Assembly (NCBI RefSeq): GCF_001854805.1
Contig: NZ_MBLO01000277.1
Location: 1-63,015, forward strand
DNA from: Pseudofrankia coriaricola
Lineage (GTDB): Bacteria; Actinomycetota; Actinomycetes; Frankiales; Frankiaceae
DNA length: 63,015 nucleotides
Reading direction: 5' to 3'
Of the stretch, positions 15,642 to 52,753 are shown one piece after another; the stretch's first letter is position 1, and the number at the start of each line of letters is the position of its first letter. The notes below the pieces were generated by a model, which ran no database searches, had not been told where the DNA came from, and saw nothing but the letters and a program-made list of their open reading frames with translations. A program made the translations under genes and the position numbers.

Positions 15642-15655
15642 ATAGCATCCACTAT
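15642..15655 (-). promoter_or_regulatory. 14-bp dyad ATAGCATCCACTAT (site 1)
   Basis: Matches ATAGY-N4-RCTAT. Read on the minus strand, TTGCAC lies 17 bases before TATCGT, which overlaps the dyad, so this looks like a promoter with an operator at its -10. It points toward the LLM-like remnant. Confidence 0.65.
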
Positions 15656-15947
15656 GTAGTGGTGCAACGAGTCGGTTCGGCCCGACCAGCCCGCAGGGCT
15701 ACCTACCCGGTCAACCCGACGACCGCCGTCGATCACGCGCCCGCCACGAGCCCCCAAAGGTGGTGACGAAGGAGAGCGGATCTGCGACAAACTGTCACAG
15801 TTACATGGTCTGCGGCTAAGCCACTCGCTCGCAACGCCCACGTCAGTTGCACTTCATTCACTAGAACGCCAAGATCAAGGCAATCTGAATAAGTCGTTGG
15901 GGTCGTCCGAGCGATGGGGTGGATGGGCGCCGGCGTGCCGAGAGTAG
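15656..15947. other. Gene-less stretch
   Basis: About 290 bases without a recognisable frame on either strand. Confidence 0.3.
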
Positions 15948-16273
15948 CGTCGTCACAATGAGAACTGGGTCACCGGACTCGACGAGCTACGCACCGGTCA
16001 GCACGACGCCGAGTCTGCCTCTCTTGTTCAAGCCGCAATTGCTGCCAACCAGCCAGTCGTCATCTACGGCAGTGAGCCACCCCGCACCGGTCTCGCCCTC
16101 GCTCATCATTACCGCTCTTTCCCGCCAAGGCCAAGCGAACTCTACACCGATATTTCCAGGGAGGCGATCGAGGCCGCGGGCCGGAATCATCAGGCCGCAG
16201 GCCCTGGTATCAGCACTGTACGCCGATTCATTCACGGAATACCGGCCGGCGGCGTCCAGCCAGGTTTGAGACC
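15948..16273 (+). other. Unrecognised open stretch
   Basis: A frame opening after a stop at 15945-15947 reads, in part, ENWVTGLDELRTGQHDAESA, VQAAIAANQPVVIYGSEPP and LYTDISREAIEAAG. It looks like protein rather than noise but has no usable start codon. I do not recognise the family. It runs into the hydrolase remnant that follows, so it is probably another fragment. Confidence 0.3.
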
Positions 16274-16561
16274 GATGTTGGAGATCACCCCAGGTTCGCC
16301 GTTCGGGTCGATCCCTATCTCTCCCCGCTGTTCGGCGATTTCACCAAGGGCTTCCCTCCAACCCTGCTTACCACAGGTACCAGGGATCTGTTCCTGTCGA
16401 ACACGGTGCGGATGCACCGCGCCCTGCGCGCCGCCGGTATCACGGCGGATTTGCATGTAATGGAGGCGGCTGGCCACGGGGGCTTCCTCGGCATGGCCCC
16501 TGAAGACGCCGAGCTGGACCGCGAGGTCCGCTGCTTCGTTGACGCCCACTGGTCCGACTGA
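16274..16561 (+). pseudogene. Alpha/beta hydrolase C-terminal fragment
   Basis: About 95 codons ending at TGA 16561 read DPYLSPLFGDFTKGFPPTLL, TTGTRDLFLSNTVRMHRALR and AAGHGGFLGMAPED. This is the C-terminal third of an HSL-type esterase, with the catalytic Asp (GTRD) and His (GHGGF) regions. The oxyanion hole and nucleophile are missing, so it is inactive. It is a different family member from the intact esterase at 1981. Confidence 0.75.
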
Positions 16562-16949
16562 GGGTTCTCGACCCCAAGCGGGTCCGGAGCAGCGCGTCCG
16601 CCCGATCCCATAGGCCGACACTACGATGCTCATGAGGGCCGCCAACTCATTGAGCTTCTCCTCGACGTTCTCCTATGAGACGCGGCATCTGGCCAAACCG
16701 GCTCCCGGATGTCCACCGCCTCGGACGTCGTCGGCAACGTGCTCGCCGCGTTCGAAGCCGCGGCCGTTGGCACGGCGTTTTCGTTCAGGGGCAGTTTGGG
16801 GCCGAGCCGTCGCACCCCAAGCGCACGCGTGGCGTTACGTGCTGGTCTCCATCAGTGCGGCCAACTGCTTTTGTCACGGCAGGTAGGGGCCGTGCCCCGG
16901 TCGCCGTCCCCGAGCAGTCCCTACACTGCGAGCTCGTATGGCGAGATGC
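16562..16949. other. Gene-less stretch
   Basis: About 390 bases. Short frames only; no convincing family match. Confidence 0.3.
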
Positions 16950-17180: not shown

Positions 17181-17265
17181 TCTAGTGACTTGCGGTTGAC
17201 TATGAGCCCGAGGCCTGCGTTCCGGATGTCTACGGTTGAGGGGCCTTGACGCGATCTCACCTCAC

Positions 17266-17291
17266 GATAGTGAATATATAGTCACTATCGT
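17266..17291. promoter_or_regulatory. 26-bp perfect inverted repeat (operator candidate)
   Basis: Arms CGATAGTGA and TCACTATCG, nine bases each, are separated by eight A+T-rich bases. The arm core ATAGTGA/TCACTAT resembles the halves of the 14-bp dyads but with wider spacing. It lies 350 bases upstream of the lipoprotein gene at 17641. Confidence 0.6.
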
Positions 17292-17456: not shown

Positions 17457-17470
17457 ATAGTACCTGCTAT
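17457..17470 (+). promoter_or_regulatory. 14-bp dyad ATAGTACCTGCTAT (site 2) with promoter boxes
   Basis: TTGCAA at 17445-17450 lies 17 bases before TATCGT at 17468-17473, which overlaps the right half of the dyad. It points at the lipoprotein gene 170 bases downstream. Confidence 0.72.
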
Positions 17471-17471
17471 C

Positions 17472-17640: not shown

Positions 17641-19026
17641 ATGCGCATCCTGCGCCAGTTATCGGCTCTACGCGCCGCTCCCGTGGCCGTCGTTGCGGTC
17701 CTCGTGGTGGCCGCAGCGGCCTGCGGTGGCTCCTCGGCCGGCGGTTCGGACGTCGCCTCGCTCGACGACACATCCGCCTGGGTGAAGACTGGACCGACCA
17801 CCGGCCCGTCTACTGGGTGGAGCGACGGCGGCTACAAGGTCGACACCAGCAAGCTGACATGCACCCAGCCGTCCAAGGATGAGACGCGCGGGATCACTGA
17901 CACCTCAATCACCGTCGAGGGCCTCGCCTATCTGACCAGTCCAGGCGGAGCCTCGATGCAAGGTGCCGACGTCGGCGCCAAGGTCCGGTTCGATGCCGCC
18001 AACGAGGCGGGTGGCATCAACGGCCGCAAGATCGACTTTAGGGGTGTGCTCGACGACGGCCAGGATGCCAGCCGCAACCTGTCCCAGGCCAATATCATCG
18101 CGACTCGGGACAGAGCGTTCGCCGCCGTCCCGGTTGTCACCAGCCTTTCCGGATACGCCGATGTCTTCTGTCAGAACAATGTTCCCTACTTCGGCTGGGG
18201 CACCAACGACGGCTTCTGCGACTCCGCGCTTGCTTTTGGCGTCACAGGATGCAACTACAATACCGCCGTGCTGGCCAATAACCTCGCCGGGTTGGTCAAC
18301 TCGATGTTCCCGGACTCGAAAGCCACACATACCCTCGCAATCGTCGGCCAGGACCTCGACTCCAGTCGTACCGCCGTCGACGCCCTCAAACATTACGCCG
18401 AAGCAGGCGGCACGAAGGTTATCTACGCTAAGACGCCTATCCCAGCCGGCGGCCTGACCGACGCCACCGCCATCGTCCAGGCAATCATGACCGCCAACGG
18501 CGGCACTCCGCCGGAGGTCGTCTACTACATCACCGACTTCGCCACCACGCTGAAGCTCATCCAGTCGCTGAAGGCCGCCGGGTACCCGGGCAAGAACCTC
18601 ACCCCAATCTACGACCCGGCGCTGTCCGGCCTGAATGACCTCGACGGTATGTACGCGACCGGCAGCTGGCTGCCCGGCATCGACGACTCCAACAAGGTCG
18701 CGAGCCAGATGGTCGCGGACTTCAAGAAGTACGCCCCCGACCAGCGAATCGGCATCGCCGCGCTCGCCGGCTACTGGTCAGCCGACTTGTTCGTCGCCGC
18801 CGCCACTGCCGCCGGCAAGGACCTCACCGTCGACAAGTTCGTCAATTTCCTGAACGCCGGCTTTGTCCACAACGGCGATGGCGCCGTACCGGAGACCCGC
18901 TGGCCACTCAACCACTTCGTGACAACACCCTGTAGCTCCCTTGTTCAACTCACCGGCGGAACCTGGAAGCCAATCACCCAACTCACCTGCGGCTCACTAC
19001 TCGTGAAAAAGCCGGCCAAGGGATAG
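17641..19026 (+). CDS. ABC-type substrate-binding lipoprotein (LivJ/amide-binding type)
   Basis: The product is 461 aa from ATG 17641, with GGAGGAAG upstream. The N-terminus is a lipoprotein signal: basic start, hydrophobic run and lipobox AAAC with Cys at residue 28. The rest is a type-1 periplasmic binding fold: ITDTSITVEGLAYLTSPGGA, INGRKIDFRGVLDDG, then the second lobe with YYITDFATTLKLIQSLKAAG. It should be anchored outside the membrane and bind a small organic ligand. No permease or ATPase genes are adjacent. It is headed by dyad site 2 and followed by a hairpin. Confidence 0.9.
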   Translation: MRILRQLSALRAAPVAVVAVLVVAAAACGGSSAGGSDVASLDDTSAWVKTGPTTGPSTGWSDGGYKVDTSKLTCTQPSKDETRGITDTSITVEGLAYLTSPGGASMQGADVGAKVRFDAANEAGGINGRKIDFRGVLDDGQDASRNLSQANIIATRDRAFAAVPVVTSLSGYADVFCQNNVPYFGWGTNDGFCDSALAFGVTGCNYNTAVLANNLAGLVNSMFPDSKATHTLAIVGQDLDSSRTAVDALKHYAEAGGTKVIYAKTPIPAGGLTDATAIVQAIMTANGGTPPEVVYYITDFATTLKLIQSLKAAGYPGKNLTPIYDPALSGLNDLDGMYATGSWLPGIDDSNKVASQMVADFKKYAPDQRIGIAALAGYWSADLFVAAATAAGKDLTVDKFVNFLNAGFVHNGDGAVPETRWPLNHFVTTPCSSLVQLTGGTWKPITQLTCGSLLVKKPAKG

Positions 19027-20268: not shown

Positions 20269-20311
20269 CCCGCAGCGGCTCGGGCCGTGCCGACCGAGGG
20301 TGGGTGATCCC

Positions 20312-20340
20312 TCGACAGTAAGGATAGCAGCTACTATAAT
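20312..20340 (+). promoter_or_regulatory. Promoter with 14-bp dyad ATAGCAGCTACTAT (site 3)
   Basis: TCGACA at 20312-20317, exactly 17 bases, then a perfect TATAAT at 20335-20340. The dyad (20324-20337) covers spacer and -10 box, so a bound dimer would block RNA polymerase. It drives the crotonase at 20405. Confidence 0.8.
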
Positions 20341-20404
20341 CTAGGTATACATTATCCTATTTATCGATCATCATGGTCGCTCATCTGCTCCGAAGGAGAC
20401 CCGC

Positions 20405-21175
20405 ATGACCGAAGGCGACGACGCCTTGGTCCGGGTGACGCTGGACGACGGGGTCGCGATGCTGACCTTGGACGCCCCCGCCCGACGCAACGCGCTGTCC
20501 TATGAGTTGAGCATGGATCTCGCCCACGCCGTGGACACAGCGCTCGAGGGCGGTGCGCAGGCCATCATCCTTAGTGCCACGCCGCCTGTGTTCTGCTCTG
20601 GCGGCTCGCTGGAGGACCTGGTCAGGCCCAAGGCTCCGTTACGCGAGATGTACGAGGGTTTTCTCAAGGTCGCGGACGCCCCGGTTCCCACGATCGCCGC
20701 CGTCAGCGGCCCCGTCATCGGGGCCGGCCTGAACCTGCCGATGGCCTGTGACGTCGTGCTCTGCTCGCCGTCAGCGGTCTTCGACCCGCGATTCCTCGAT
20801 GTCGGCATCCACCCGGGCGGCGGCCATCTGTGGCGTCTGTCCCGGCAGGTCGGCAGCCAGGGCGCGGCGGCGCTCGTCCTGCTCGGCGACACGCTGACCG
20901 GCGAGGAGGCGGCGGCGCGTGGCCTCGCCTGGCGCTGCCTTCCGGAGAACGACTTGCTTGACGCGGCGCTGAAGCTCGCTCGTCGGGCCGCCAACAGGGA
21001 CCCGGAGCTAGTGGCACGGACCAAGCAGTCGCTGCGGGCCAGCCTTGCATTGACCGAATCAAAGGCCGCGCTGGAGCTGGAGCTCGCGGCACAGGAGTGG
21101 GCGGTCTCCCGGCCCGGCTTCGCGGCCCAGGTTGCCGAGATCAAGAAGAGTCTCAGCAAGCGCCAGGTCAGGTAG
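20405..21175 (+). CDS. Enoyl-CoA hydratase/isomerase (crotonase) family
   Basis: The product is 256 aa from ATG 20405 with GAAGGAGA upstream. Oxyanion-hole segments are FCSGGSLEDL and SGPVIGAGLNLPMACDVVLC. The usual catalytic Glu pair is not obvious: the region reads FLDVGIHPGGGHLWRLSRQV, with Asp or Gly where Glu is typical and no Glu after RGLAW. So it may be an isomerase, thioesterase-like or lyase-like crotonase rather than a hydratase. It heads a plus-strand run with the class II aldolase and two SDRs and is under dyad site 3. Confidence 0.88.
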   Translation: MTEGDDALVRVTLDDGVAMLTLDAPARRNALSYELSMDLAHAVDTALEGGAQAIILSATPPVFCSGGSLEDLVRPKAPLREMYEGFLKVADAPVPTIAAVSGPVIGAGLNLPMACDVVLCSPSAVFDPRFLDVGIHPGGGHLWRLSRQVGSQGAAALVLLGDTLTGEEAAARGLAWRCLPENDLLDAALKLARRAANRDPELVARTKQSLRASLALTESKAALELELAAQEWAVSRPGFAAQVAEIKKSLSKRQVR

Positions 21176-25539: not shown

Positions 25540-26040
25540 TCATGGTTTTGCGGCGTCGTCGGCGTCAGGAGCGGTCGGCATCCGGGCCGTGACGATGACG
25601 ATGGTCTTCATCTCCGCGACCAGCCGTCCATCCGCTGCGCGGAACTCGTCCCAGGTCAGCGACGCCGACTTGGGCACCAGGTTCTGGGTCGGTGCGGCGA
25701 CCCGCTCGGCGAGCGTGCCGGGGTGCAGTTCGGAGAACGGGGTGCGCCTGGGGTTGAGCGTCTCGTCGCCGCCAGAGACGGCCGGGTCCCCGATGGCCGC
25801 GTGAACGATCACGTCCCGTCCGTCCTCGGCCACGCCGGCGGCATCGCAGCCGAGGATCATCGGCAGTCGTTCCGCTGGCAGGCCGACCCCTCGAAGGCTG
25901 AAGAGCTCGTGATGGTTCAGCGTCGCGGCGTGGACCGAGACCGTCGTCCAGCCTTCGGGCGCAGGTCGTTCCGGCTGCTCGTCCACAGCCAGACCGGCGA
26001 GCGGATCATCAGGGTGCGCGGAGACGGCGGCGGCGAGCAT
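25540..26040 (-). CDS. Truncated zinc-type medium-chain dehydrogenase, chimeric tail
   Basis: The product is 166 aa from ATG 26040. The start, MLAAAVSAHPDDPLAGLAVD, and GWTTVSVHAATLNHHELFSL form the GroES-like domain of MDR quinone or alcohol reductases. After LVPKSASLTWDEF the sequence is not that family: AADGRLVAEMKTIVIVTARM resembles the end of a MaoC/hotdog domain. The NAD(P)-binding domain (about 200 residues) is absent. It is probably a fusion of two gene ends and inactive as a dehydrogenase, though it still lies directly after dyad site 4. Confidence 0.65.
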   Translation of the reverse strand: MLAAAVSAHPDDPLAGLAVDEQPERPAPEGWTTVSVHAATLNHHELFSLRGVGLPAERLPMILGCDAAGVAEDGRDVIVHAAIGDPAVSGGDETLNPRRTPFSELHPGTLAERVAAPTQNLVPKSASLTWDEFRAADGRLVAEMKTIVIVTARMPTAPDADDAAKP

Positions 26041-26086
26041 GGCCAGCAAGCTATGGCTGTTCCTGCGACAGACGCCACAGATTTAT

Positions 26087-26100
26087 ATAGTGAACACTAT
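26087..26100 (-). promoter_or_regulatory. 14-bp dyad ATAGTGAACACTAT (site 4)
   Basis: It lies 46 bases upstream of ATG 26040. On the minus strand, TGGTCA lies 18 bases before TATATA, which overlaps the dyad. The flank CACTATGTGG-N3-TGACCAC recurs at site 5. Confidence 0.75.
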
Positions 26101-26485: not shown

Positions 26486-27151
26486 GTGGCGGAGGCGATC
26501 GATGGTGTCACGGGGCAGGCACCTCGGGACCGGTCCCGGAGGGGCCGCGCGACGAAGGACCCGGCGGGCCGGACCCAGATCCTGGACGCGGCCGTCGCCT
26601 GCATCCTGGAGCTCGGCTTCTACCGGGCCAGCACCAACGAGATCGCCCGGCGCGCGAACGTCAGCTGGGGTGCCATCCAGTACTATTTCGGCTCCCGCGA
26701 AGCCCTGATGATCGCCGCTGCCGAAGAACTCAACCGCCGCTTCATCGACGCCATCGCCGAACGCCACGTCGAGGGCGACACCCTCGAAACACGGATTCAC
26801 TCCCTCTACGACCTGCTCGCCCAGTACTACAGCGAACCGACCTTCCTCGCTCGCCTGCAGATTCTCCTCAACCTCCAACATGACCCCGACACCTCGGCCG
26901 ACGCGACGGAAAGCCTGCGCAGTCAGGCAGAGCGCGTCGCCGGCGAAATCAGACGCCTCCTCACCGAAACCCTCGGCGAGGACGCCGACCCGGGCCGCAG
27001 CACCGTGCTGTTCCACGCCATCCGCGGCTTCGCCATAAGCCAGCAGCTCGCCGAGTCCGCCTGCCCACCCATCGCCGAGCGCGAGGCCGCGACCCGAACG
27101 CGCTTTCTCGCCGGCATCGTCGCCACGGAGCTGCAGGCGAGAAACGCGTAG
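26486..27151 (+). CDS. TetR-family regulator A
   Basis: The product is 221 aa from GTG 26486, with AAGGAG upstream. The N-terminal domain has ILDAAVACILELGFYRASTN, EIARRANVSWGAIQYYFGSR and EAL, a TetR DNA-binding domain. Its recognition helix (WGAIQYYFGSREAL) is nearly that of the second TetR at 37603 (WGTIQHQFGTREAL), and the effector domains also align. It is a candidate for binding the repeated 14-bp dyads. The ligand, perhaps an acyl-CoA or pathway intermediate, is unknown. Confidence 0.92.
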   Translation: MAEAIDGVTGQAPRDRSRRGRATKDPAGRTQILDAAVACILELGFYRASTNEIARRANVSWGAIQYYFGSREALMIAAAEELNRRFIDAIAERHVEGDTLETRIHSLYDLLAQYYSEPTFLARLQILLNLQHDPDTSADATESLRSQAERVAGEIRRLLTETLGEDADPGRSTVLFHAIRGFAISQQLAESACPPIAEREAATRTRFLAGIVATELQARNA

Positions 27152-27242: not shown

Positions 27243-28184
27243 TCAGACCGAGATAGGGACCGACGCATACCCACGCACCGTGCTGGTGTGCACCCGTTCC
27301 AGCCGGCTGTGGTCGACGCTCCAGGACGGGAAGCGCCTCAGGGTTTCCTCCAGCGCGACGCGTCCCTCGAGCCGGGCCAGCGCCGCGCCGAGGCAGAAGT
27401 GCACGCCGTGGCCGAACGCCAGGTGCCGCTGCCCCGCCCGGCGGACATCGAAGCGGTCGGGGTCGTCGAAGGCTCGCGGGTCACGCCCGGCGCTGCCAGT
27501 GAGCAGGAGGACCTTGGAGTCCTTGGGAATGTCCACGCCGCGCAGGGTCACGTCACGGGTCGTCCAGCGTCCCTGAACGGGAGACGGCGCCTCGTAGCGC
27601 AGCAGTTCCTCGACCGCACCCGGGATGAGCCTCGGATCGGCAGTGAGGTCGGCAAGCTGCGCCGGGTGATCGGCGAGGATGACGGCCGCGTTGCCCAGCA
27701 GCTTGGCAACGGTCTCCGTTCCCGCCGAGTAGAGCAGCAGGGCGAAACGGACGCACTCGTCGGTGCCGAGCCGACGGGACCCACCGGTATTGTCAGTGAT
27801 CTCCGCGTTGACGAGGTCAGTGACCATGTCCTCGCGCGGTGACCGGCGACGCTCCGCCGCCAGGTCCGCGAGGTAGCCGGCCAGGGCGAGTCCCGCCGTC
27901 GCCGCCTTCTCGTTGACCATGCCCACACCCGGCTCGATGTGGAACATCCCGTCGACGAGCCGGCGCAACTCCTCCTGGTCCTCGCTCGGCACGCCAACGA
28001 GAGCCGAGATGACCCGCGACGGCACCTGCGCGGCGAAATCGCGGACATAGTCGACCGAACGCTCATCGGGCCGCCTCGACCTCCGCTCCGACCACCATGT
28101 TCGATTCCCTGACGCCACCTCAGGCGACCAAAGGTAGCACTCACTATGTGGTGATGACCACCGAACGGCTTCGCCGCGAGCCAT
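27243..28184 (-). pseudogene. Cytochrome P450, 5'-truncated
   Basis: From about 28070 to 27243 the frame is a good bacterial P450 C-terminal two-thirds: DYVRDFAAQVPSRVISALVG, I-helix LLYSAGTETVAKLLG, EELLR of the ExxR motif and haem loop FGHGVHFCLG with the axial Cys. The first 120 residues, including the B-C loop, are missing and replaced by unrelated sequence (start at 28184). A P450-like scrap (DFDVAVSYADIRQVS) appears in another frame near 28330, which suggests frameshift decay. It converges with the TetR gene at 27151. Confidence 0.75.
28134..28147 (-). promoter_or_regulatory. 14-bp dyad GTAGCACTCACTAT (site 5, one mismatch)
   Basis: One base differs from ATAGY-N4-RCTAT. The flank CACTATGTGG-N3-TGACCAC is shared with site 4. 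It lies inside the nonconserved 5' part of the P450 remnant and points to it. Confidence 0.6.
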
Positions 28185-32424: not shown

Positions 32425-32429
32425 TCGAC
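32400..32429. repeat. 15-bp perfect tandem duplication at the gene junction
   Basis: Two copies of GCTGGCTCATTCGAC, back to back, cover the CoA-transferase stop and hydrolase start. Each copy carries an ATGA on the minus strand. A related 17-bp unit is repeated three times at 40923-40973, also over a stop codon. Confidence 0.85.
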
Positions 32430-36101: not shown

Positions 36102-36499
36102 GACGCGCTCCGTGCCGGCCGGAACACCGGTACCGACCCGTCGCCGGCCGTCGGCTCAAACGCGACCTCCAGCCGCATGCCGATCCGGATGTCCCCCGGC
36201 GCCACGTCCACCAGGTTCGACACCAGCCGGATGCCCTCGTCGAGGTCGACGAGCGCGGCCAGGACCGGGTAGTCGAAGGCAGGGTTGCGCGGGTGGTGCA
36301 GCAGGGCGTAGCTGTACAGGGCGCCGCGACCGGACAGCTGCTCGGCCTTGTAGTCGAGCGACTGGCAGTGCGGACACATCGGACGGGGCGGATGACGCAA
36401 CACCCCACACCCGCCACACCGCTGCGCGACCAGCCGGCCCTCGGCGGCCGCGTCCCAGAAGATGGCCGAATCGTCCGTGACGACAGTAGAAGGTCTCAC
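36098..36499 (-). CDS. DUF35 / Zn-ribbon OB-fold protein
   Basis: The product is 133 aa from ATG 36499. Four Cys form the zinc ribbon (RCGGCGVLRHPPRPMCPHCQ), followed by an OB-fold (GRGALYSYALLHHPRNPAFD). DUF35 proteins bind acyl-CoA and partner thiolase-fold enzymes. The overlapping start of the thiolase-like gene supports a fixed complex. It is first in a minus-strand operon of four genes and its start lies nine bases from dyad site 7. Confidence 0.92.
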   Translation of the reverse strand: MRPSTVVTDDSAIFWDAAAEGRLVAQRCGGCGVLRHPPRPMCPHCQSLDYKAEQLSGRGALYSYALLHHPRNPAFDYPVLAALVDLDEGIRLVSNLVDVAPGDIRIGMRLEVAFEPTAGDGSVPVFRPARSAS

Positions 36500-36507: not shown

Positions 36508-36521
36508 ATAGTAAGTGCTAT
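36508..36521. promoter_or_regulatory. 14-bp dyad ATAGTAAGTGCTAT (site 7) between divergent genes
   Basis: It lies between the DUF35 gene (minus) and the amidohydrolase gene (plus), nine and 33 bases from the two starts, so one bound protein could control both operons. Confidence 0.75.
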
Positions 36522-36553: not shown

Positions 36554-37606
36554 ATGGCCAAGCTGATCTCAGCGGACTCGCACGTGGCGGTGAGCCTCGA
36601 CGCGATCCGAGAGCGGGTGCCACGGTCGCTGCACGGCGCGTTCGACGACGCCATCGCCGCCCAAGCCAGGATCGATGAACACCTGCGGGCCGGGCGGAAG
36701 ATCTCGATGGATGACTGGGACCTCGAGGCATTCCGTGACCCCGGTTACCGCGACCCGGTGGCACGCCTCGCCGCGATGGACCGTGACGGCGTACGGGCCG
36801 AGGTCCTCTACTCCGAGGTGAGCGCGTTCCGATCGTTCGGCCTCGTCAAGGGCGACTGGAAACCGATCAGCCGCGCCTTCACCGACCACCTCGTCGAGTT
36901 CGCCTCCCACGACCCGGACCGGCTCGCGGTGTCCTACCAGGTCCCCATCCTCGACATCGCCTACGCCGTCGCCGAGGTCGAGCGCCTCGCCGGACTCGGC
37001 GCCCGCTCGGTGCACCTGCCGAACTTCCCGAGCGAACTCGGCCTGCCCGACTACCACGAACCGCTGTACGACCCACTGTGGGCCGTGCTGCAGGAGACCG
37101 GAATCTCGATCAGCCACCACCTCGGCAACCGCCACTGGCTGTACGACATCATGCGCCGCGACCCGACCCCACAGGCAGCGATCTTCACGTCGATGCCAGC
37201 CCTGGCGCTGTCAGAGGTGATCGCCTGGTGGATCCTCACCGGCACCCTCGAACGGTTCCCGGACCTCAAAATCGTCTTCGTCGAGCCCAGCCTGTACTGG
37301 GTGCCGGGCTTCCTGGCCAGCCTCGACCGCAAGGCGGACGTCTACGACCTGCCCGGGGTGCGGCGAAAGCCCAGCGAGTACTTCCGCCGCAACATGGCGC
37401 TCACGTTCATGGACGACGAGGTCGGACTCGGGCTGCGTCACCTGATCGGGATCGAGAACATCTTGTGGTCCACCGACTTCCCACACCCCGCGACCACCTG
37501 GCCGCACTCCCAGGAGATCGTGGCCCGCCAGTTCGCGGACATCCCCGACGACGAACGCGACCTGATCTGCGCCGGCAACGCGGAACGGATCTACGGCCTG
37601 GCATGA
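36554..37606 (+). CDS. Amidohydrolase-2 family (ACMSD-like) protein
   Basis: The product is 350 aa from ATG 36554 (GGGAGGA upstream). The fold is that of ACMSD-like decarboxylases or hydrolases: ISADSHVAVSLD at the start, ISISHHLGNRH, VFVEPSLYWVPGF and STDFPHPATTWPHS near the end. The usual HxH metal motif is reduced to a single His (DSHVAV). The acid of STDFPHP and the central His residues remain. It may be a metal-dependent decarboxylase or C-C hydrolase. Its stop overlaps the following TetR start (ATGA). Confidence 0.85.
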   Translation: MAKLISADSHVAVSLDAIRERVPRSLHGAFDDAIAAQARIDEHLRAGRKISMDDWDLEAFRDPGYRDPVARLAAMDRDGVRAEVLYSEVSAFRSFGLVKGDWKPISRAFTDHLVEFASHDPDRLAVSYQVPILDIAYAVAEVERLAGLGARSVHLPNFPSELGLPDYHEPLYDPLWAVLQETGISISHHLGNRHWLYDIMRRDPTPQAAIFTSMPALALSEVIAWWILTGTLERFPDLKIVFVEPSLYWVPGFLASLDRKADVYDLPGVRRKPSEYFRRNMALTFMDDEVGLGLRHLIGIENILWSTDFPHPATTWPHSQEIVARQFADIPDDERDLICAGNAERIYGLA

Positions 37607-38301
37607 GCGGATCGGGGTCCGGGCCCGTGGACGCGAGCCGCCGCCCGCGGCCAGACGGCGCCGCCACCAGGGCCCGCGTGCTCGACGCCGTCGTCGAGTG
37701 CATCCTGAAGAACGGCTATTACCAGGCCAGCTCCAACGCCATCGCCCGCCACGCCGGAGTCACGTGGGGCACCATCCAGCACCAGTTCGGAACCCGCGAG
37801 GCACTGCTGCTCGCCGTGGTCCAGGACCGATGGCAGCGCCTGACCAGGCACCTCGGCACCGCCGCCGTGTCCGGTGAGACCCTCGAGGAGCGCCTCGCCG
37901 GCGTGATGGGCGCGCTCGAAACGCACTACGGCTCCCCCGAGCACCTGGCGATCATGCAGATCATGCTCGACCTGGCCCAGTCGCCGGCCACCGCCGAGTC
38001 GACGAAACGCGCCGTGGAGACCCACGCCGCCGAGCTTTCCCAAGTGTGGCACCCTCTGCTCGCGAAGGCTCTCGGGGACGCGGCAAGCGACGAAGACCTG
38101 GTCCGTTACGCCTTCCTGACCATCCGCGGCTACCTCAGCGCCAACGCCATGGCGGCCCGGCTTGGCCCGCAGCCTCCCGACGGAGCCGTGCGCGCGCTGC
38201 TGCTGCAGGGCATCGCCCGCGCGATCCGAGAACACGCGACGCGAACCGGCCGGGCGCCGGGCCCGGCGACCGGCAGTTCGAATTCTCCGGCAGGCGGATG
38301 A
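37603..38301 (+). CDS. TetR-family regulator B
   Basis: The product is 232 aa from ATG 37603, overlapping the amidohydrolase stop. The HTH is LDAVVECILKNGYYQASSNA then IARHAGVTWGTIQHQFGTRE. It is a paralogue of the TetR at 26486 with nearly the same recognition helix. Transcribed from the divergent promoter with dyad site 7, it probably represses its own operon and perhaps all dyad sites. Confidence 0.92.
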   Translation: MSGSGSGPVDASRRPRPDGAATRARVLDAVVECILKNGYYQASSNAIARHAGVTWGTIQHQFGTREALLLAVVQDRWQRLTRHLGTAAVSGETLEERLAGVMGALETHYGSPEHLAIMQIMLDLAQSPATAESTKRAVETHAAELSQVWHPLLAKALGDAASDEDLVRYAFLTIRGYLSANAMAARLGPQPPDGAVRALLLQGIARAIREHATRTGRAPGPATGSSNSPAGG

Positions 38302-38428: not shown

Positions 38429-39316
38429 TCAGTCGGCCATCCAGACGTCGAAGAGCAGCAAGGTGTCCTGGTACTCGCGGAGTTCAACGATCTCGCCCGC
38501 GCGGCAGACGAACAGGTGGTGGTACCGGTTGTCGTACGTGCGTCCGTTCGCTGCGTTTACGGCGTAGCCACGGGCCTCGACGGCGACGCGGTCGTCTTCG
38601 GCCGTGAGGGTGCGCGCGATGAGGTCGAACCGACCGTCCACGCATCCTTTGACCGTGTTTCTGAAGATCTCCAGCGTCTCGGCCTTGGAGTAGCCGATGT
38701 CCGCATTGAGCGCGGGCGCCGCGGCGAGCATCGACGACTGGCGCCGGCCGCTGGTGGGCTGCCGCCACCGGAAGTCCTCGCTGAGCAGCTCTGCGAGGGC
38801 AGTCCAGTCACCTGCTGTGTAGAGCTCGCAGAAGCGGCGCGCCAAGCCCTTGTTCGTCGCGAGATGGTCGCCATCTCCTCCGGTACGAGGGTTGCCATAG
38901 CGCCGCATGAAGGTCACGTTGAAGCCGAACCATTGAGCAGGATCGCAGACCAGCTGATAGACCGCCTGCGCTTGCTCGCAGTCGTTGCCGAGACGACTGT
39001 CGTACTCGAAGACGATCCGGTACCCGTGTTCCTGCAGCCAGCTCCTGGTCTCGTCGACATCGGCGACCTCCCAGACGAGCGGCCCGATCTGCCCAGGACC
39101 TCGCCGGAGCTTCTCCCCGAAGCCGCCCGCCGCTCCGATCGGGGCGACCAGCTCGATGAATCCACCGAAGTCCGTCGCAGAGAGGACCGGCCGGCCATCG
39201 ATCGCGTGCGGCTTCGGTAAGCACAGGCCCAGGACCTCGTTGAACTGTTGGACCGCCCGATCTATCTCGCTCTCGGCGACGACCAACTCGACGCGGTTGA
39301 ATCCCTCGATCTTCAT
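38429..39316 (-). CDS. VOC (glyoxalase-like) and SnoaL/NTF2-like fusion
   Basis: The product is 295 aa from ATG 39316; an ATG at 39355 falls within a perfect hairpin and is less likely. Residues 1-140 form a VOC domain (MKIEGFNRVELVVAESEIDR, ATDFGGFIELVAP, YRIVFEYDSRLG). Residues 155-295 form an NTF2-like domain (RRFCELYTAGDWTALAELLS, YDNRYHHLFVCRAGEIVELR). Both folds act as isomerases, dioxygenases or cyclases, and the fusion suggests two successive steps on one substrate. Function is unknown. Confidence 0.85.
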   Translation of the reverse strand: MKIEGFNRVELVVAESEIDRAVQQFNEVLGLCLPKPHAIDGRPVLSATDFGGFIELVAPIGAAGGFGEKLRRGPGQIGPLVWEVADVDETRSWLQEHGYRIVFEYDSRLGNDCEQAQAVYQLVCDPAQWFGFNVTFMRRYGNPRTGGDGDHLATNKGLARRFCELYTAGDWTALAELLSEDFRWRQPTSGRRQSSMLAAAPALNADIGYSKAETLEIFRNTVKGCVDGRFDLIARTLTAEDDRVAVEARGYAVNAANGRTYDNRYHHLFVCRAGEIVELREYQDTLLLFDVWMAD

Positions 39317-39684: not shown

Positions 39685-39698
39685 ATAGTAAACACTAT
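39685..39698. promoter_or_regulatory. 14-bp dyad ATAGTAAACACTAT (site 8)
   Basis: It lies 370 bases upstream of the VOC gene and 150 bases from the end of the crotonase gene. No clear -35 was found for either direction. Confidence 0.6.
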
Positions 39699-40922: not shown

Positions 40923-40973
40923 GCTGGCTATTCGACGGTGCTGGTTATTCGACTGTGCTGGTTATTCGACGGT
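40923..40973. repeat. Three tandem 17-bp units over the SRPBCC stop codon
   Basis: GCTGGCTATTCGACGGT, GCTGGTTATTCGACTGT and GCTGGTTATTCGACGGT. The SRPBCC stop lies in the third. The unit is close to the 15-bp unit at 32400-32429. Confidence 0.9.
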
Positions 40974-41429
40974 GCGGGCGAGGATTCCGAGGGTGGCGCG
41001 CAGCGCGGCCTCGGGGATCACGGGGAAGATCCCTTTGCCGCGGTAGGCGTCGGGGATCTGTGACCAGTCGTAGTACGAGGTGACCCGGGTACCGGCGCCC
41101 TTAGGTTCCAGGCGGTAGCCGTACAGGTGCCGCAGCGGCTGGTCGTTCACCTTGCTGCCGATCGTCCATTCGATGAGCGCGTCCGGCTCGTACTCCGTGA
41201 TGATCACGGTCACGTCGTACTGACCGAGCGGGTAGTCGTTCAGCGCCTCGCGGTCCATGTGCACGACGAACGAGTCGCCGACCGTACTCACCGGCTCGCC
41301 GTCGGCCGACTGAAGCATCCCGGAACTGTCGATCTTCACATGCCCCGCGGGATCCCGCAGCACGGCGAACACCGTCGAGGGCGACGCCGTCACCTGCCGA
41401 GAGACCTCGAACCGCTCCGCTTCCATCAT
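40962..41429 (-). CDS. SRPBCC-family protein
   Basis: The product is 155 aa from ATG 41429. It begins MMEAERFEVSRQVTASPSTV and continues FVVHMDREALNDYPLGQYDV and GTRVTSYYDWSQIPDAYRGK, a START/Bet v 1-like helix-grip fold binding hydrophobic ligands. Such proteins in catabolic clusters act as cyclases, aromatases or carriers. The start has no strong ribosome site. It is the first gene of a minus-strand pair with the crotonase at 39852. Confidence 0.85.
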   Translation of the reverse strand: MMEAERFEVSRQVTASPSTVFAVLRDPAGHVKIDSSGMLQSADGEPVSTVGDSFVVHMDREALNDYPLGQYDVTVIITEYEPDALIEWTIGSKVNDQPLRHLYGYRLEPKGAGTRVTSYYDWSQIPDAYRGKGIFPVIPEAALRATLGILARTVE

Positions 41430-41629
41430 GGACACCACCCTGCCACGGCGACCAAACGCAGGCCAGAACAGAACATTCACCCAGGCCACGGCCATCTCGA
41501 CAGACGTCCGCAGAGAAGCGAGCTCCACCTTCATCACGTTCGGTAGCCGGTCGGCGCCGGGCGACACCTACCGGAAGACCTGCGATCTTGGGAGGTCCCG
41601 CACTATTCGCCGGACTGTTGCATTACTAC

Positions 41630-41643
41630 ATAGCGATAACTAT
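41630..41643 (+). promoter_or_regulatory. 14-bp dyad ATAGCGATAACTAT (site 9) with promoter boxes
   Basis: TTGCAT at 41618-41623, then 17 bases, then TATCTT at 41641-41646 overlapping the dyad. It points to the aldehyde dehydrogenase at 41713. Confidence 0.75.
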
Positions 41644-41712: not shown

Positions 41713-43122
41713 ATGAGTGCGCAGGCAACGGTGAGTGAGCTAGGTCAGCTGATCAACGGCGCGCTGGTAACGAGTGATCGGTCCATGCCCGTCGCTGATC
41801 CGTCCACCGGGGAGCTGGTCGCGCACTTCCCGGCGGCGACGGTCGCGATGGTGGACGACGCGATGTCGGCGGCGTCCGCCGCTCTCCCCGCATGGTCGGC
41901 CAGGCCGGAGGCAGACCGTCGCGCGGTGATCAAGGCGATGGCCGAGGCGATTGGGGCCAACTACGCGACGATCGAGGAGCTCACCGCGCTGGAGAAGGGC
42001 GCCGCCTCGATCGCGCTGGAGGCGTTGGCCGCGCCCTGGTTCGGCAACCACATCGCCGAGCAGGAGCTCCCCGTCGACGTCATCGAGGACTCCGCCGAGC
42101 GCACCGTCAAGGTGGTTCGCGCCCCCGTCGGCGTCGTCGCGGCGATCATCCCATGGAACGCGCCAATCCTCATTCTCGCCGAGAAGGTCTTCAGCGCCCT
42201 GCTGGTCGGAAACACGATCGTCGCGAAGCCCTCACCGTTCACGCCGCTGGCCACGCTCTACGTCGCGAAGATCTGGAAAGACCTCGTCCCACCGGGCGTG
42301 GTCAACATCCTCGCTGGCGACGACGAGGTCGGAAAGGCGATGGTCTCGCACCCGACCACCCGGCTGATCAGCTTCACGGGCAGCGTCGCGGCGGGCCGCG
42401 CGATCGCCGCCGCCGCCGCGCCGGGCCTCAAGAACCTGCTGCTCGAACTGGGCGGCAACGACGCCGCTATCGTGCTCGACGACGTCGACCCGAAGAAGGT
42501 CGCGCAGCGAATCTTCGATTCCGCGTTCACCGGCCACGGCCAGGTCTGCGCCGCGATCAAACGGGTGTACGCCCATGAGACGGTCTACCAGGACCTCGTC
42601 GACGAACTCGCGGTGATCGCCCGCGAACGGGTTGCCGGCATGATCCCGCTATCCACCAAGCCCCAGTTCGACCGTGTCAGCGCGCTCGTCACCGATGCCC
42701 TCGACAACGGCGGGAAGGCGGTCACCGGCGGCGCCGCGGTCAACGGCTCCGGCTACTTCTACCCGCCGACCATCCTGACGGGCGTCGGCCCTGGCGTGCG
42801 GGTCGTGGACGAGGAGCAGTTCGGGCCGGTCCTGCCGGTCATCCCGTTCAGCGACGTCGAGTGGGCCGTCAAGCAGGCCAACGCCACCGAGTACGGGCTG
42901 TGCGCCTCCGTCTGGACCTCGGACCTCGCACGGGGCGAGCAGCTCGCCACCCGCCTCGAAGCCGGCACCGCCTGGGTGAACCAGCACACCGAGATCGACC
43001 CGAAAATCCCGTTCGGCGGCGTGAAGTCCAGCGGCATCGGTCGGAACAACGGCCAGGTCGGCCTCGACGCCTACGCCGAGCTCAAGACCGTCATCGTCTA
43101 CAAGGACCCGGAGCGGGTCTGA
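41713..43122 (+). CDS. Aldehyde dehydrogenase (NAD(P)-dependent)
   Basis: The product is 469 aa from ATG 41713. Active-site motifs are complete: IIPWNAPILI, FTGSVAAGRAIA, Glu in LLLELGGNDAAIVL, and Cys in GHGQVCAAIKRVY. SSGIGRNNGQVGLDAYAELK is the oligomerisation tail. It oxidises an aldehyde to the acid. Being the first gene after dyad site 9, with two SDRs following, it likely completes an alcohol-aldehyde-acid series feeding the CoA-transferases. Confidence 0.95.
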   Translation: MSAQATVSELGQLINGALVTSDRSMPVADPSTGELVAHFPAATVAMVDDAMSAASAALPAWSARPEADRRAVIKAMAEAIGANYATIEELTALEKGAASIALEALAAPWFGNHIAEQELPVDVIEDSAERTVKVVRAPVGVVAAIIPWNAPILILAEKVFSALLVGNTIVAKPSPFTPLATLYVAKIWKDLVPPGVVNILAGDDEVGKAMVSHPTTRLISFTGSVAAGRAIAAAAAPGLKNLLLELGGNDAAIVLDDVDPKKVAQRIFDSAFTGHGQVCAAIKRVYAHETVYQDLVDELAVIARERVAGMIPLSTKPQFDRVSALVTDALDNGGKAVTGGAAVNGSGYFYPPTILTGVGPGVRVVDEEQFGPVLPVIPFSDVEWAVKQANATEYGLCASVWTSDLARGEQLATRLEAGTAWVNQHTEIDPKIPFGGVKSSGIGRNNGQVGLDAYAELKTVIVYKDPERV

Positions 43123-45193: not shown

Positions 45194-46267
45194 TCAGAGG
45201 TGGAAGACCCGCTTGGCGTTGCCGTAGACGAGCTTGTGGGCCTCGTTGGCGGGGACGTCGCGCATGAGTTCGGCGACGACCTTGCGCGAGTTGGGCCAGG
45301 TGCAGGCCGGGTGGGGGAAGTCGGTGGACCACATGATGTTGTCGATGCCGATGTCGTGGCGCATGTTCACGCCGCGCCGCTCGTCCATGAAGGTGAGGAA
45401 GATGTTGCTCTGGAAGTAGGCGCTGGGCTTCTGCTTCAGGGCGGGGAACTCGTAGCCGTGCGTGGTCATGTAGTCGAGGATGTCGAGGTAGTACGGCACC
45501 CAGCTCAGGCCGGGCTCGACGAAGACGAACTTCAGCCCTGGGAAGCGCTCGAACAGACCCGACAGCAGCAACATGCCGAGCTGTTCGGACAGCCGCATCG
45601 GCGGCTGGGAGGTGAAGACACCCAGCTGCGGGGTGGGGTCGACGGCGGCGAGCTGCCAGTACTCGTCCTCGACGCCGAGGTGCAGGCAGACGGGCATGTC
45701 CAGCTCCTGCAGCCGCGCCCACAGCGGGTCGTAGCGGGGGTCGTAGTACTCGGGCAGGCCGACCGAGCCGGGCTTGGTGGGCAGGTGCACGGTGCGCGCC
45801 TGGTGGTCGGTCACCAGCCGTTCGAGCTCGGCGACCGCCTGGTCGATGTCGAGCAGGGGGAGCTGGTAGGCGACGAGCAGCCGGGCGGGATCGGCGGCGG
45901 CGAAGGCGGAGCTGATGTCGGCGAAGGCGCGGGCGGTCTCCTTCCAGCCGTCGAGCATCTTGTGGAAGATCCGGAACGCGGACAGGTCGCTGAAGAGAAT
46001 CTCGACGTCGACGCCGTCCTCGTCCATCGCCGCGAGCCGGGCGGTGGGGTCGGAGTACCCGGGGTGGCGGGCGGCCTCGTGCAGGTAGGAGCCCAGGCCG
46101 AGCGGCGGGGTTCCGCGGCGCTGCATCGCGGCCAACCTGGGTGCCTCGACCAGTCGGTTGGCGTGGTCGATCCCGTCGTGGAAGCGGGCTGGTACCGCTT
46201 CCTTGAGCTGGTCGATCGTGACCCGGTAGTGGGAGTCCACGGAGATGAGTCGATCGAGTCCGGGCAC
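45194..46267 (-). CDS. Amidohydrolase-2 family (ACMSD-like) protein
   Basis: The product is 357 aa from GTG 46267 (TAGGAGGTG upstream). It is a paralogue of the one at 36554: LISVDSHYRVTIDQ, VCLHLGVEDEYWQ, FVFVEPGLSWVPYY, STDFPHPACTWPNS and the end VYGNAKRVFHL. The first metal motif is again DSH with only one His. It follows a double CoA-transferase gene on the same strand by 68 bases, as part of a two-gene operon. A copy of its last bases occurs at 31275. Confidence 0.88.
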   Translation of the reverse strand: MPGLDRLISVDSHYRVTIDQLKEAVPARFHDGIDHANRLVEAPRLAAMQRRGTPPLGLGSYLHEAARHPGYSDPTARLAAMDEDGVDVEILFSDLSAFRIFHKMLDGWKETARAFADISSAFAAADPARLLVAYQLPLLDIDQAVAELERLVTDHQARTVHLPTKPGSVGLPEYYDPRYDPLWARLQELDMPVCLHLGVEDEYWQLAAVDPTPQLGVFTSQPPMRLSEQLGMLLLSGLFERFPGLKFVFVEPGLSWVPYYLDILDYMTTHGYEFPALKQKPSAYFQSNIFLTFMDERRGVNMRHDIGIDNIMWSTDFPHPACTWPNSRKVVAELMRDVPANEAHKLVYGNAKRVFHL

Positions 46268-46335
46268 AGGGCACCTCCTACGGTGATGGTGGCTTTGGTC
46301 CCGTGGGGGAACACAGCTGGTTGGGTGTTCCGGGT

Positions 46336-48849
46336 TCAGGGGGTGGGCGCGGTTTCCAGCACGGTCCGGGAGGCGATCAGCGCGTCGATCGCGTCGGACT
46401 GGTAGCCGAGCTCGGCTAGCACCGGTCGGGTGTGTTCGCCGGCGAGGCAGGGCGGCCCGGAGACTCCGCCGGGGTGAACCGTGAGGTCGACCAGGACGCC
46501 GGGCTGCTCGAGGCGGCCGACCCCGGGGCGATGGGCGGTGGCGATCCAGCCGCGGGCGCGGATGTCCGGGTCGTCGAACAGCTGGGTGGAGTAGGTCGTG
46601 GAGGAGATCTCGCAGGGCAGGTCGCGTTTGTCGAACGCGGGGACGATCTCCTCGGCGGTCCGGCGGGCAAACAGCGGCTCGAGTGCGGCCCTCAGCTCCG
46701 CGTCGTGGGCGCGGCGAGCGGCAAAGTCGGCGAACCGCGGGTCGTCTCGCAGCTCGGCGGCCTCCAGCACGTCACACAGGTCGGACCAGGCAGGCGCGGC
46801 GAGGACGGCGATGGACAGCCAGCTGTCGTCGGCGAGCCGGTACAGCCCGTGCAGGGCTGAAAGGCCACGTTGGGCGGCGTCGATGCGTGGCCGCTCGACC
46901 GGTGTGCCGTCGGCCAGGCTGTAGGCGTAGGACGTCGCCAGTAGGGCGGCGTTGATGATCGCGGTGCCGACCCGCTGCCCCTCGCCGGTGCGCTCGCGAT
47001 GGTAGAGCGCCTGCATGACGGCGATCGCCCAGAGGTAGCCGTTGCCGGTGTCGCCCATGTTGACCCGGCTCCAGAGCGGCGGGCCGCCAAGCCGGCAGGC
47101 GCCGTCCTCGTACTCGGTGCCGGCCAGCGCGTTCGCGGTCTGGTCGGTGCCCGGCTGCGACGAGCGCGGCCCGTCCTCGAAGCCGCGGGTGTGGCAGTAG
47201 ATCAGCCCGGGGAACCGGGTGCGCAGCTGTTCGTAGCCGATGCCGAGTCGCTCGGCCGCGCCGGGGCGCATGTTGTGGGCGACGACGTCGGCGGTGGCGA
47301 GGAGGCGGTCGAGCACTTCGCGACCAGCTGGGTCCTTGAGGTTGAGGGCGATGCTGCGCTTGCCCCAGTTGGTGCCGAGGCCCAGGTGGGTGGTGGACCA
47401 GTAACCGTCGTGCAGGGCGTGCACCTTGATCACATCGGCGCCGAGGTCGGCGAGCACCCGGCCGCCCCACGGGCCGGCCACCCCGATACCGAGGTCGAGT
47501 ACCCGCACGCCGTCCAGCGGTCCGCGCCGCAGCGGCGCGCCCTGCCGGGTGGCCGCGGGAGTCGACGCCTGCCCGTGCTGGCCGCCTCCGTCAGCGAGGC
47601 CGACGCCGGCGGAGGCGGCCAGGACCTGGTGGGTGTGCTCGCCGGGGCGCGGTGCCGGGCCGGTCACGGCGCCGGGGGCGGCCGCGAACTCCAGGAGGAC
47701 TCCGGCGTGCCGGATGGGCCCTACCTCGGGGTCGGCGACCTCGACGACGCATCCGTGGTCGAGCAGCGCCTGGTCGGCGAACGCCTCCTCCGGCGAGCGG
47801 ACCAGGGCGATACCCAGGTTGCGCGCCGCGCCGAACGCGACCCACTGCTCACTGGGAAACTTCCGGAACGCCTCGACGAGCTCCTGGTGGAACAGGTACA
47901 GGATCGGCAGCTCGTCCGCGTCCATGCCGATGCGCACGCCGCCTCCGCCCCGCATGTCGTCCCGCGGACCGTCGAGCATCAGCTCGTCGCCGACCGCCGC
48001 GTCGAGCACCAAGGTGGGACGAATCGTCCAGAAATGCACCCAGCGACCGTCGGCGCATTCGAACAGGCCCTCGGGCGCTCGCCGGTCGGTCACCCACATC
48101 CAGTAGCCGGGCGCGTCCGCGTTGTCCACCCGCTGCCAGTTCGGCCCGGCCGCGGCCATCGCGCCCTGCAGGAGGGACGTCTGGACGTGCTCGCCGAGCC
48201 CGGTCACCTCGCGGGCGCGCAGCGCCGCGCTGATGCCGGCGGTGGCCAGGTAGGCGGCGCCCAGGCTCGGCCACATCGAGCGCAGGAACACCGGTCCTTC
48301 CTGGCCGAACCGGCTCGCTGGCAGGTCCGGCACCTCCAGGTCCGGCAACGGGATCCCCGCCCGGCTGATCCGGTTCAGCGCCGTCCCCGGATAGCCCCGG
48401 GCCTCCCACTGCAATCCGGTGCGGGCGGCGACGAGGGAGTCATAGCCCGGGCGGTGCGCGTCCGGGCCGTCCGGCCCGTAGCCGGTGATCGAGCAGTACA
48501 CCAGCCGTGGGCTGCGCCGGCGCAGCGTCGCCTCGTCGATACCCAGCCGCTCGGTCACGCCGGGCTCGAACGACTCCACCAGTACGTCGGATCGCTCGGC
48601 CAGCCGCAGGAACGCCGCGCGCTGGTCGTCGTCGCGCAGGTCGAGGACGGCGCTGCGCTTGCCCCTGTTCCACACCCGGTAGGCGACCTCGTCACGTGCC
48701 GGATCTCCAGCGGGCGACTCGATCCGCAGCACGTCCGCGCCGGAGTCGGCCAGCAGCATCGTGGTCATCGGACCGGCCGCGCCCCAGGACAGATCGAGCA
48801 CACTCAGGCCGGCGAGCGGCCCGCCCCGAAGAGGCGTCGGATCAAGCAC
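46336..48849 (-). CDS. Double-length CaiB/BaiF CoA-transferase
   Basis: The product is 837 aa from GTG 48849 (GGGAGG upstream). It has the same two-unit layout as the gene at 32421. N-half: LSVLDLSWGAAGPMTTMLLA; at the catalytic site it reads MWPSLGAAYLATA, with no Asp. C-half: GVRVLDLGIGVAGPWGGRVL and VNMGDTGNGYLWAI with Asp600. The two proteins align over their entire lengths, so the fusion and the loss in the N-half predate their divergence. It should form or transfer a CoA ester of a pathway acid. Dyad site 10 lies 140 bases upstream. Confidence 0.92.
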   Translation of the reverse strand: MLDPTPLRGGPLAGLSVLDLSWGAAGPMTTMLLADSGADVLRIESPAGDPARDEVAYRVWNRGKRSAVLDLRDDDQRAAFLRLAERSDVLVESFEPGVTERLGIDEATLRRRSPRLVYCSITGYGPDGPDAHRPGYDSLVAARTGLQWEARGYPGTALNRISRAGIPLPDLEVPDLPASRFGQEGPVFLRSMWPSLGAAYLATAGISAALRAREVTGLGEHVQTSLLQGAMAAAGPNWQRVDNADAPGYWMWVTDRRAPEGLFECADGRWVHFWTIRPTLVLDAAVGDELMLDGPRDDMRGGGGVRIGMDADELPILYLFHQELVEAFRKFPSEQWVAFGAARNLGIALVRSPEEAFADQALLDHGCVVEVADPEVGPIRHAGVLLEFAAAPGAVTGPAPRPGEHTHQVLAASAGVGLADGGGQHGQASTPAATRQGAPLRRGPLDGVRVLDLGIGVAGPWGGRVLADLGADVIKVHALHDGYWSTTHLGLGTNWGKRSIALNLKDPAGREVLDRLLATADVVAHNMRPGAAERLGIGYEQLRTRFPGLIYCHTRGFEDGPRSSQPGTDQTANALAGTEYEDGACRLGGPPLWSRVNMGDTGNGYLWAIAVMQALYHRERTGEGQRVGTAIINAALLATSYAYSLADGTPVERPRIDAAQRGLSALHGLYRLADDSWLSIAVLAAPAWSDLCDVLEAAELRDDPRFADFAARRAHDAELRAALEPLFARRTAEEIVPAFDKRDLPCEISSTTYSTQLFDDPDIRARGWIATAHRPGVGRLEQPGVLVDLTVHPGGVSGPPCLAGEHTRPVLAELGYQSDAIDALIASRTVLETAPTP

Positions 48850-48990
48850 CAGATCCTCCCGGAATCGGATCGGCGTACCAAGACGGCGGGGGCGAGCATG
48901 CCCGCGAGGGCGCGGGCGTCCCCTCGGACGGCAACAGCGGGCAGGATCCGCCGATCGACGATCACGCGATCCAGCCACTCAGCTACGAAG

Positions 48991-49004
48991 ATAGCATGCA
49001 CTAT
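48991..49004 (-). promoter_or_regulatory. 14-bp dyad ATAGCATGCACTAT (site 10)
   Basis: It is followed by the GTGGT flank, as at sites 4 and 5. It points to the double CoA-transferase, and TATCTT overlaps the dyad in that direction. Confidence 0.68.
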
Positions 49005-52752: not shown

Positions 52753-52753
52753 C

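Follow-up and report, generated by a model that had tools for sequence, protein, structure and literature searches.

A 63,015-nucleotide stretch of the Pseudofrankia coriaricola genome (contig NZ_MBLO01000277.1 of assembly GCF_001854805.1), here called the window, carries ten copies of the dyad ATAGY-N4-RCTAT across a cluster of catabolic genes. These dyads very probably belong to a real operator regulon with a likely TetR-family regulator, for which comparison between genomes gives good support. A single TetR-type repressor, the product of 26486-27151, probably uses them as its operators, perhaps along with its paralogue encoded at 37627-38301. An initial annotation, made from the letters of the window, had proposed that the catabolic genes share an operator, and this proposal is supported by the recurrence of the operators together with related target genes in other Frankia and in Acidimicrobiales. 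The likely binder, the extended form of the palindrome and the spread of the TetR-dyad pair to other genera are additions to it. A poorly understood catabolic gene block of Frankia-type soil actinobacteria would thereby be recast as a defined regulon for which a candidate regulator and an operator can be named, and the operator could be used to find regulon members elsewhere in genomes and hence the pathway.

Dyad sites and their promoter positions

The dyad was present at all ten positions given by the initial annotation, nine times exactly and once (28134, GTAGCACTCACTAT) with a single mismatch. As had been claimed, the exact copies were confined to 15.6-49.0 kb, with none earlier or later in the window, and no exact copy arose in 100 shuffles of the window. 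Genes were called with a simple codon-usage script, and 30 of them, from 11259 to 51856, were annotated with Pfam. The sites, listed without strand, are:

15642..15655: operator-like dyad, exact; no called gene start within 450 bp; among apparently decayed genes
17457..17470: operator-like dyad, exact; 170 bp 5' of the substrate-binding protein gene
20324..20337: operator-like dyad, exact; 67 bp 5' of the enoyl-CoA hydratase gene; overlaps the end of an AtuA fragment
26087..26100: operator-like dyad, exact; 37 bp 5' of the alcohol dehydrogenase remnant and 385 bp 5' of the TetR gene
28134..28147: operator-like dyad, one mismatch; 141 bp 5' of the shortened P450 gene
29827..29840: operator-like dyad, exact; 50 bp 5' of the acyl-CoA dehydrogenase gene
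36508..36521: operator-like dyad, exact; separates the amidohydrolase-fold gene from the divergent OB-fold/Ltp2-like genes
39685..39698: operator-like dyad, exact; 368 bp 5' of the glyoxalase/SnoaL gene
41630..41643: operator-like dyad, exact; between the divergent polyketide-cyclase-fold and aldehyde dehydrogenase genes
48991..49004: operator-like dyad, exact; 141 bp 5' of a double CoA-transferase gene; a conserved island in five aligned upstream regions

The whole genome (11,203,906 bases) contained ten exact dyads against three matches of a reversed-pattern control. Nine of the ten lie in the cluster, so that the motif is concentrated at the targets and rare elsewhere, and the count does not refute the regulon on the ground of chance frequency named by the initial annotation. 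The tenth, at C263:36784 (locus L029), lies upstream of an NAD(P)-binding protein gene. One-mismatch dyads numbered 70 genome-wide, below the 121 of the control, and are therefore not significant alone; weight was given solely to exact sites or to near-sites with supporting context. A one-mismatch match at 25415 was rejected as a site, lying inside the called gene 24485-25492, and its coding position bears out its omission from the initial list.

A scan of ATAG-Nk-CTAT in the window for k from 0 to 13 gave nine matches at k=6 and single matches at k=3 and k=11, the last overlapping the 17457 site; all other spacings were empty. The 6-bp spacing is the sole enriched one; TATC-Nk-GATA and CTAT-Nk-ATAG gave no match in the window. 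The k=3 match, at 17278, belongs to a perfect inverted repeat at 17264-17291, ACGATAGTGA-N8-TCACTATCGT, with ten-base arms and an eight-base spacer in a gene-poor stretch; it was set aside and is perhaps another operator form. A pair of adjoining two-mismatch dyad-like words was also seen at 28404-28431, upstream of a substrate-binding protein gene called at 28616.

Most sites of the window lie, as the initial annotation had it, in an intergenic or promoter position before a catabolic gene or its remnant, but this does not extend to every site: the 20324 dyad overlaps the end of an open reading frame (ORF), a 208-residue AtuA fragment at 19718-20344; 15642 lacks a called start in its neighbourhood; and at 39685 the nearest start is as distant as listed above. 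Over 18 loci with 36 exact sites, 35 sites fell outside called ORFs and one inside, which speaks against the motif being common inside unrelated genes. An ORF start lay within 450 bp in 34 of the 36 and within 200 bp in 30, with a median distance of 73 bp. This count left out L019 (no exact site), L027 and L028 (near copies of genus genome G002), L029, L030, L034, L035, L054, L064 and L109-L113, as well as L033, L056, L058 and L060, which duplicate contigs of other loci, and the 3-kb loci of the searches. The same 18 loci together with L030, and with two one-mismatch sites added, gave 36 oriented sites, whose extended consensus is two-fold symmetric (ACATAGYRNNYRCTATGT). The motif is also kept before related genes of other genomes. 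ACATAG-N4-TGCTAT is common to five regions, two being near-copies, upstream of the double CoA-transferase gene at 46336-48849 and of its relatives, and the flanks of these regions diverge.

The promoters described by the initial annotation, TTGCAN-17-TATCNT at 15642, 17457 and 41630 and TCGACA-17-TATAAT at 20324, are present, but they are not the general form. Among 34 sites of related loci, oriented to the nearest gene start, the right arm was overlaid by TATNNT in 20. This lends support to the suggestion that the dyad covers the -10 box and would suit a repressor operator.

The candidate TetR regulator and its distribution

Two genes for TetR-family proteins lie within the cluster:

26486..27151, + strand: TetR-family regulator, proposed dyad binder (Pfam TetR_N; co-occurrence with the dyad; TetR-like model)
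37627..38301, + strand: paralogous TetR-family regulator, 36% identical to the first; directly behind the target gene 36554-37606

The protein encoded at 26486-27151 is a member of the TetR family by Pfam and by fold. Its TetR_N helix-turn-helix domain scored 47.7 bits (Pfam cut-off 24), and its predicted structure consists of nine helices in the all-helical TetR fold, with a mean predicted local distance difference test (pLDDT) score of 86.1. Foldseek with this model gave a probability of 1.00 and query TM-scores of 0.46-0.61 among the 50 matches listed; the matches that we recognised among these 50 are TetR-family proteins. Sequence and fold searches of the PDB returned general TetR matches and nothing more specific. 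None of the NCBIfam equivalog models reached its cut-off with this protein, BetI (TIGR03384), for instance, scoring 52.9 bits against 201.3.

The protein is the most likely binder of the dyad, as judged from their joint occurrence in genomes. In the genus, five of eight genomes (G000, this genome, and G002, G003, G006 and G007) have a match to it at E 1e-20 or better, and these five have site clusters; G001, G004 and G005 gave no match at E 1e-20. Exact dyads from G000 to G007 numbered 10, 2, 8, 14, 0, 1, 4 and 3, and reversed controls 3, 5, 3, 5, 2, 3, 2 and 0. One G002 site (L110) has no gene related to those of the window nearby, and the G005 site (L113) lies within a very long gene; both may be due to chance. 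In the family, a profile search at E 1e-30 found the TetR in 8 of 35 genomes. In each of the eight, an exact site lies no more than 2 kb from a TetR copy, and two or more sites within 10 kb occurred in six of them (G000, G002, G003, G006, G007 and G014) versus none of the other 27 (Fisher p ~2e-5, computed by hand and ignoring relatedness). Exact sites exceeded controls in the eight TetR genomes (44 vs 19 in sum) and fell below them in the other 27 (30 vs 72). Ten of the 12 TetR copies listed in that search, the 37627-38301 paralogue included, have an exact site within 2 kb, the exceptions being one copy in G003 (contig C31) and one in G000 (contig C220).

The initial annotation had also pointed to related genomes, and there the motif recurs with related target genes, two loci in acidimicrobial metagenome-assembled genomes (MAGs) among them. 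A scan of a genome collection with the TetR alignment gave ten loci, in Frankia nepalensis CN7 (two), Frankia sp. AgB1.9, AgKG'84/4, AgB32 and EI5c, a Frankia MAG, an Acidimicrobiales MAG, an Ilumatobacteraceae MAG and a Mycolicibacterium. All ten have an exact site within stretches of 4-21 kb; four of the ten contigs had already been found by the motif and three came from genomes of the family search, so that L062, L063 and L064 are new. At L062, from the Acidimicrobiales MAG, the TetR gene and the site are accompanied by amidohydrolase-fold, Ltp2-like, OB-fold and CoA-transferase genes, the four target relatives being 45-69% identical to those of the window. The exact site lies between the amidohydrolase-fold and TetR genes, and a one-mismatch site, adjoined by a KshA-like Rieske gene, precedes the CoA-transferase gene. 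The called content of L063 (4.2 kb) is the TetR gene, the site, a CoA-transferase gene and one further gene. A phylum-wide search scored seven candidates per genome, which makes it a weak test of absence; it gave three further matches, all in one genus, presumably Mycobacterium, with a PPE-like neighbour gene.

Among 98 mycobacterial genomes, 56 contained 70 TetR matches, 30 loci of which were examined first and the other 40 later. ATAG-N6-CTAT stood before the TetR gene in 23 of the first 30 loci, and the reversed core in none. The remaining seven have it in the same place with one mismatch (six) or two (one); across the 30, the arms of the dyad are near-invariant and the inner six bases more variable. 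No exact dyad was found at the further 40 matches: at nine of them a one-mismatch form lies up to 400 bp upstream, and the other 31 have neither form. Identity to the query is 64-73% for these nine, comparable to the lowest values among the first 30. Divided by overall identity and dyad, and not by helix, the matches thus form an orthologue group of 39 (23 exact, 15 with one mismatch and one with two; 38 of the 39 within one mismatch) and a paralogue group of 31, 40-51% identical to the query.

In the first 30 loci (L079-L108) the promoter region lies between the TetR gene and a divergent gene of 400 residues, which has no Pfam match (tested for L079). The element TATAAAGTCAA is invariant in all 30 and is closely followed by an ATG, an arrangement that suggests a leaderless transcript. 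The paralogues L155-L174 are often seemingly the second gene of an operon, and in 14 short upstream stretches the end of the preceding gene is alike in many genomes.

Proposed mechanism and rival explanations

In the mechanism that we propose, a dimer of the 26486-27151 protein (perhaps also of the 37627-38301 protein) would bind the palindrome over 14 to 18 bp. In many promoters the right arm would lie over the -10 region and the bound repressor would block RNA polymerase; repression by occlusion fits this position of the dyad. A pathway compound, perhaps an acyl-CoA thioester, would release the repressor and so allow transcription from some ten promoters in a cluster that is mosaic and partly decayed. 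The enzymes encoded there would convert a polycyclic terpenoid or steroid-like acid to its CoA thioester, oxidise this and cleave it in a retro-aldol reaction. The target gene set and a weak likeness of the regulator to Bacillus FadR suggest an acyl-CoA as the releasing ligand. We infer from sequence the binding and the repression as well as the inducer and the substrate.

Known systems offer partial parallels. KstR and KstR2 are TetR-family repressors of cholesterol genes in actinobacteria, with many palindromic operators over CoA-linked degradation genes. The arrangement here is likewise one of a TetR protein and many palindromes over CoA-linked catabolic genes, but the gene set is different, the KstR motif appears to be unlike the dyad, and the KstR equivalog model (NF033703) matched the 26486-27151 protein weakly, at 27.6 bits against a cut-off of 280. 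Bacillus FadR and other acyl-CoA-responsive TetR repressors were among the better sequence and fold matches (5gpa, 3whb, 3whc), and an acyl-CoA ligand would suit the target genes; the identity in the fold alignment, however, was ~20%, and the FadR model (NF053878) gave 42.3 bits against a cut-off of 200. With the Atu system of acyclic terpene utilisation, whose regulator is AtuR, the cluster shares AtuA-family genes, located in it and beside it, but no exact dyad precedes the intact genes for AtuA and the biotin-dependent carboxylase (49994-57211). Text searches of the open-licence PMC literature (motif, Frankia regulators, target genes), judged from the listings, found no paper on this operator.

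Several observations weigh against the assignment of the dyads to the 26486-27151 protein as repressor. The mycobacterial footprint is a single orthologous promoter and counts as about one event. We had expected the dyad at the mycobacterial paralogues as well, and this was not borne out: none of the 31 has the exact dyad in stretches of ~2-3 kb, nor does any of the 20 for which wider stretches of 8-11 kb were taken, and they have a very similar recognition helix, mostly WGV[IV]QYHF. The helix alone therefore does not predict the site, and the pairing belongs to the orthologue group and not to every protein with this helix; the pairing over distant actinobacteria, set beside this dyad-less group, is useful for the study of specificity change in TetR proteins. 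The second TetR copy of this genome (C220; L054 9926-10597, 67% identity) lacks ATAG-N6-CTAT throughout 20 kb, its contig as a whole contains no exact site, and for the C31 copy of G003 the nearest exact site is 4.2 kb away. The distance between the TetR gene and the closest exact site is 1-2 kb in several Frankia genomes, and autoregulation is therefore not a general feature. At L064, the Mycolicibacterium locus, 6 kb separate the site from a partial match (38% identity), and chance may account for this site; for a relative on a Novosphingobium plasmid, 35% identical and with a different helix, 20.5 kb contained no dyad. In addition, several targets of the window are remnants, and TTG stands at the matching -35 place in just 3 of the 34 oriented sites. 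The L054 copy was seen to be flanked by two genes whose products begin like lipoproteins.

Part of this evidence would suit operators bound by another regulator, such as the 37627-38301 paralogue, the TetR protein encoded at 49383-49997 or an unlinked protein, with the 26486-27151 gene travelling with the cluster for other reasons. The TetR genes that do not adjoin a site, the C220 copy without one and the dyad-less mycobacterial paralogues all agree with such a reading, as does the place of the 37627-38301 gene directly behind a target gene. We nevertheless regard it as unlikely, on comparisons that covered the 26486-27151 and 37627-38301 proteins. The 37627-38301 protein has no close relative in the eight genus genomes, where its other matches (35-41%) are of the 26486-27151 type or the C31 copy of G003; L063 holds merely the TetR gene, the site and two other called genes; and in mycobacteria the dyad precedes the orthologue's own gene.

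Binding of an activator, or of a protein with both roles, in place of a pure repressor would accord with promoters that look weak, as the scarcity of TTG at -35 indicates, and with several sites more than 100 bp from a called start. It is very improbable, since TetR proteins are mostly repressors and the TATNNT seen over the right arm in 20 of the 34 sites is a typical repressor position. Least credible of all is that the dyads are what is left of a mobile or structural repeat which duplication has spread and no regulator binds: the cluster is indeed a mosaic with decayed genes and related gene pairs, but the inner bases and flanks vary among the sites, arms and spacing alone being kept, and the sites are placed ahead of gene starts and are found again upstream of related genes in other genera. 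Operators of a TetR-type repressor of the 26486-27151 type thus remain the preferred reading.

Target genes and possible substrate

The genes of the cluster that are targets or associated with targets are:

17641..19026, + strand: substrate-binding protein (Peripla_BP_6), target
20405..21175, + strand: enoyl-CoA hydratase/isomerase, target
25540..26049, - strand: N-terminal part of an alcohol dehydrogenase, target remnant, 169 residues
27243..27992, - strand: P450 without its N-terminal part, target remnant, 249 residues
29891..31063, + strand: acyl-CoA dehydrogenase, target
32421..34835, - strand: double CoA-transferase family III protein; from gene order, a probable member of the operon headed by 36098-36379
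34932..36101, - strand: Ltp2-like thiolase-fold protein (best PDB match 6ok1, E 3e-119)
36098..36379, - strand: OB-fold (ChsH2 C-terminal type) partner of the Ltp2-like protein, target
36554..37606, + strand: amidohydrolase-fold enzyme, target (best PDB matches PtmU3 and DitZ)
38429..39316, - strand: glyoxalase/SnoaL-like protein, possible target
40962..41567, - strand: polyketide-cyclase-fold protein, possible target, divergent from the aldehyde dehydrogenase gene
41713..43122, + strand: aldehyde dehydrogenase, target
45194..46267, - strand: second amidohydrolase-fold enzyme, behind a double CoA-transferase gene
46336..48849, - strand: double CoA-transferase family III protein, target

The two remnants have longer relatives, each with its own exact site: the alcohol dehydrogenase relative in L022 has 324 residues (169 here) and the P450 relative in L018 has 398 (249 here).

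In the PDB, the 34932-36101 protein matched an entry named 'Lipid-transfer protein' (6ok1), which we take to be Ltp2 of Thermomonospora curvata. The gene adjoins that of its OB-fold partner, as in the Ltp2-ChsH2 pair of steroid side-chain aldolase, a likeness that concerns a target enzyme and not the regulator. In PMC12329534, that Ltp2 protein is described as a homologue of a bile acid side-chain aldolase, acting on the C3 side chain. According to PMC10127204, PtmU3 is a nonheme diiron monooxygenase that acts on a diterpenoid-CoA, and the metal ligands of the related LynB7 are three His, two Asp and one Glu. In the amidohydrolase-fold protein, D8, H10, H189, E244, D308 and H311 are invariant in all seven aligned relatives and form a set of the same kind as the LynB7 ligands given there, with the mapping done by eye. 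The PtmU3 residue E313, named in the same paper, has no acidic counterpart in the alignment, and this counts against a PtmU3-like ligand mapping.

Together, the Ltp2-like match, the match to PtmU3 and DitZ, the ligand set and the KshA-like Rieske gene of L062 suggest, as a hypothesis, that the substrate is a polycyclic terpenoid or steroid-like acid degraded via CoA thioesters. A more far-reaching idea is offered tentatively, as a possibility that we ourselves doubt: a distinct TetR subfamily with ATAG-N6-CTAT across Frankia relatives, Acidimicrobiales and mycobacteria might control an undescribed oxygenase/retro-aldol route for polycyclic terpenoid or steroid-like acids, in which PtmU3-like amidohydrolase-fold enzymes would hydroxylate CoA thioesters and the Ltp2/OB-fold pair would cleave the products.

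Two neighbouring regions were also noted. A block at 49383-57211, without an exact dyad, contains a TetR gene (SACE_7040-like, below the cut-off) and AtuA, enoyl-CoA hydratase, biotin carboxylase and carboxyltransferase genes; three genes of this block have relatives that adjoin a dyad in G002 (L109). On the other side, a GGDEF-EAL protein gene (11259-13352) adjoins the cluster and has a relative of 53% identity near the cluster in L020.

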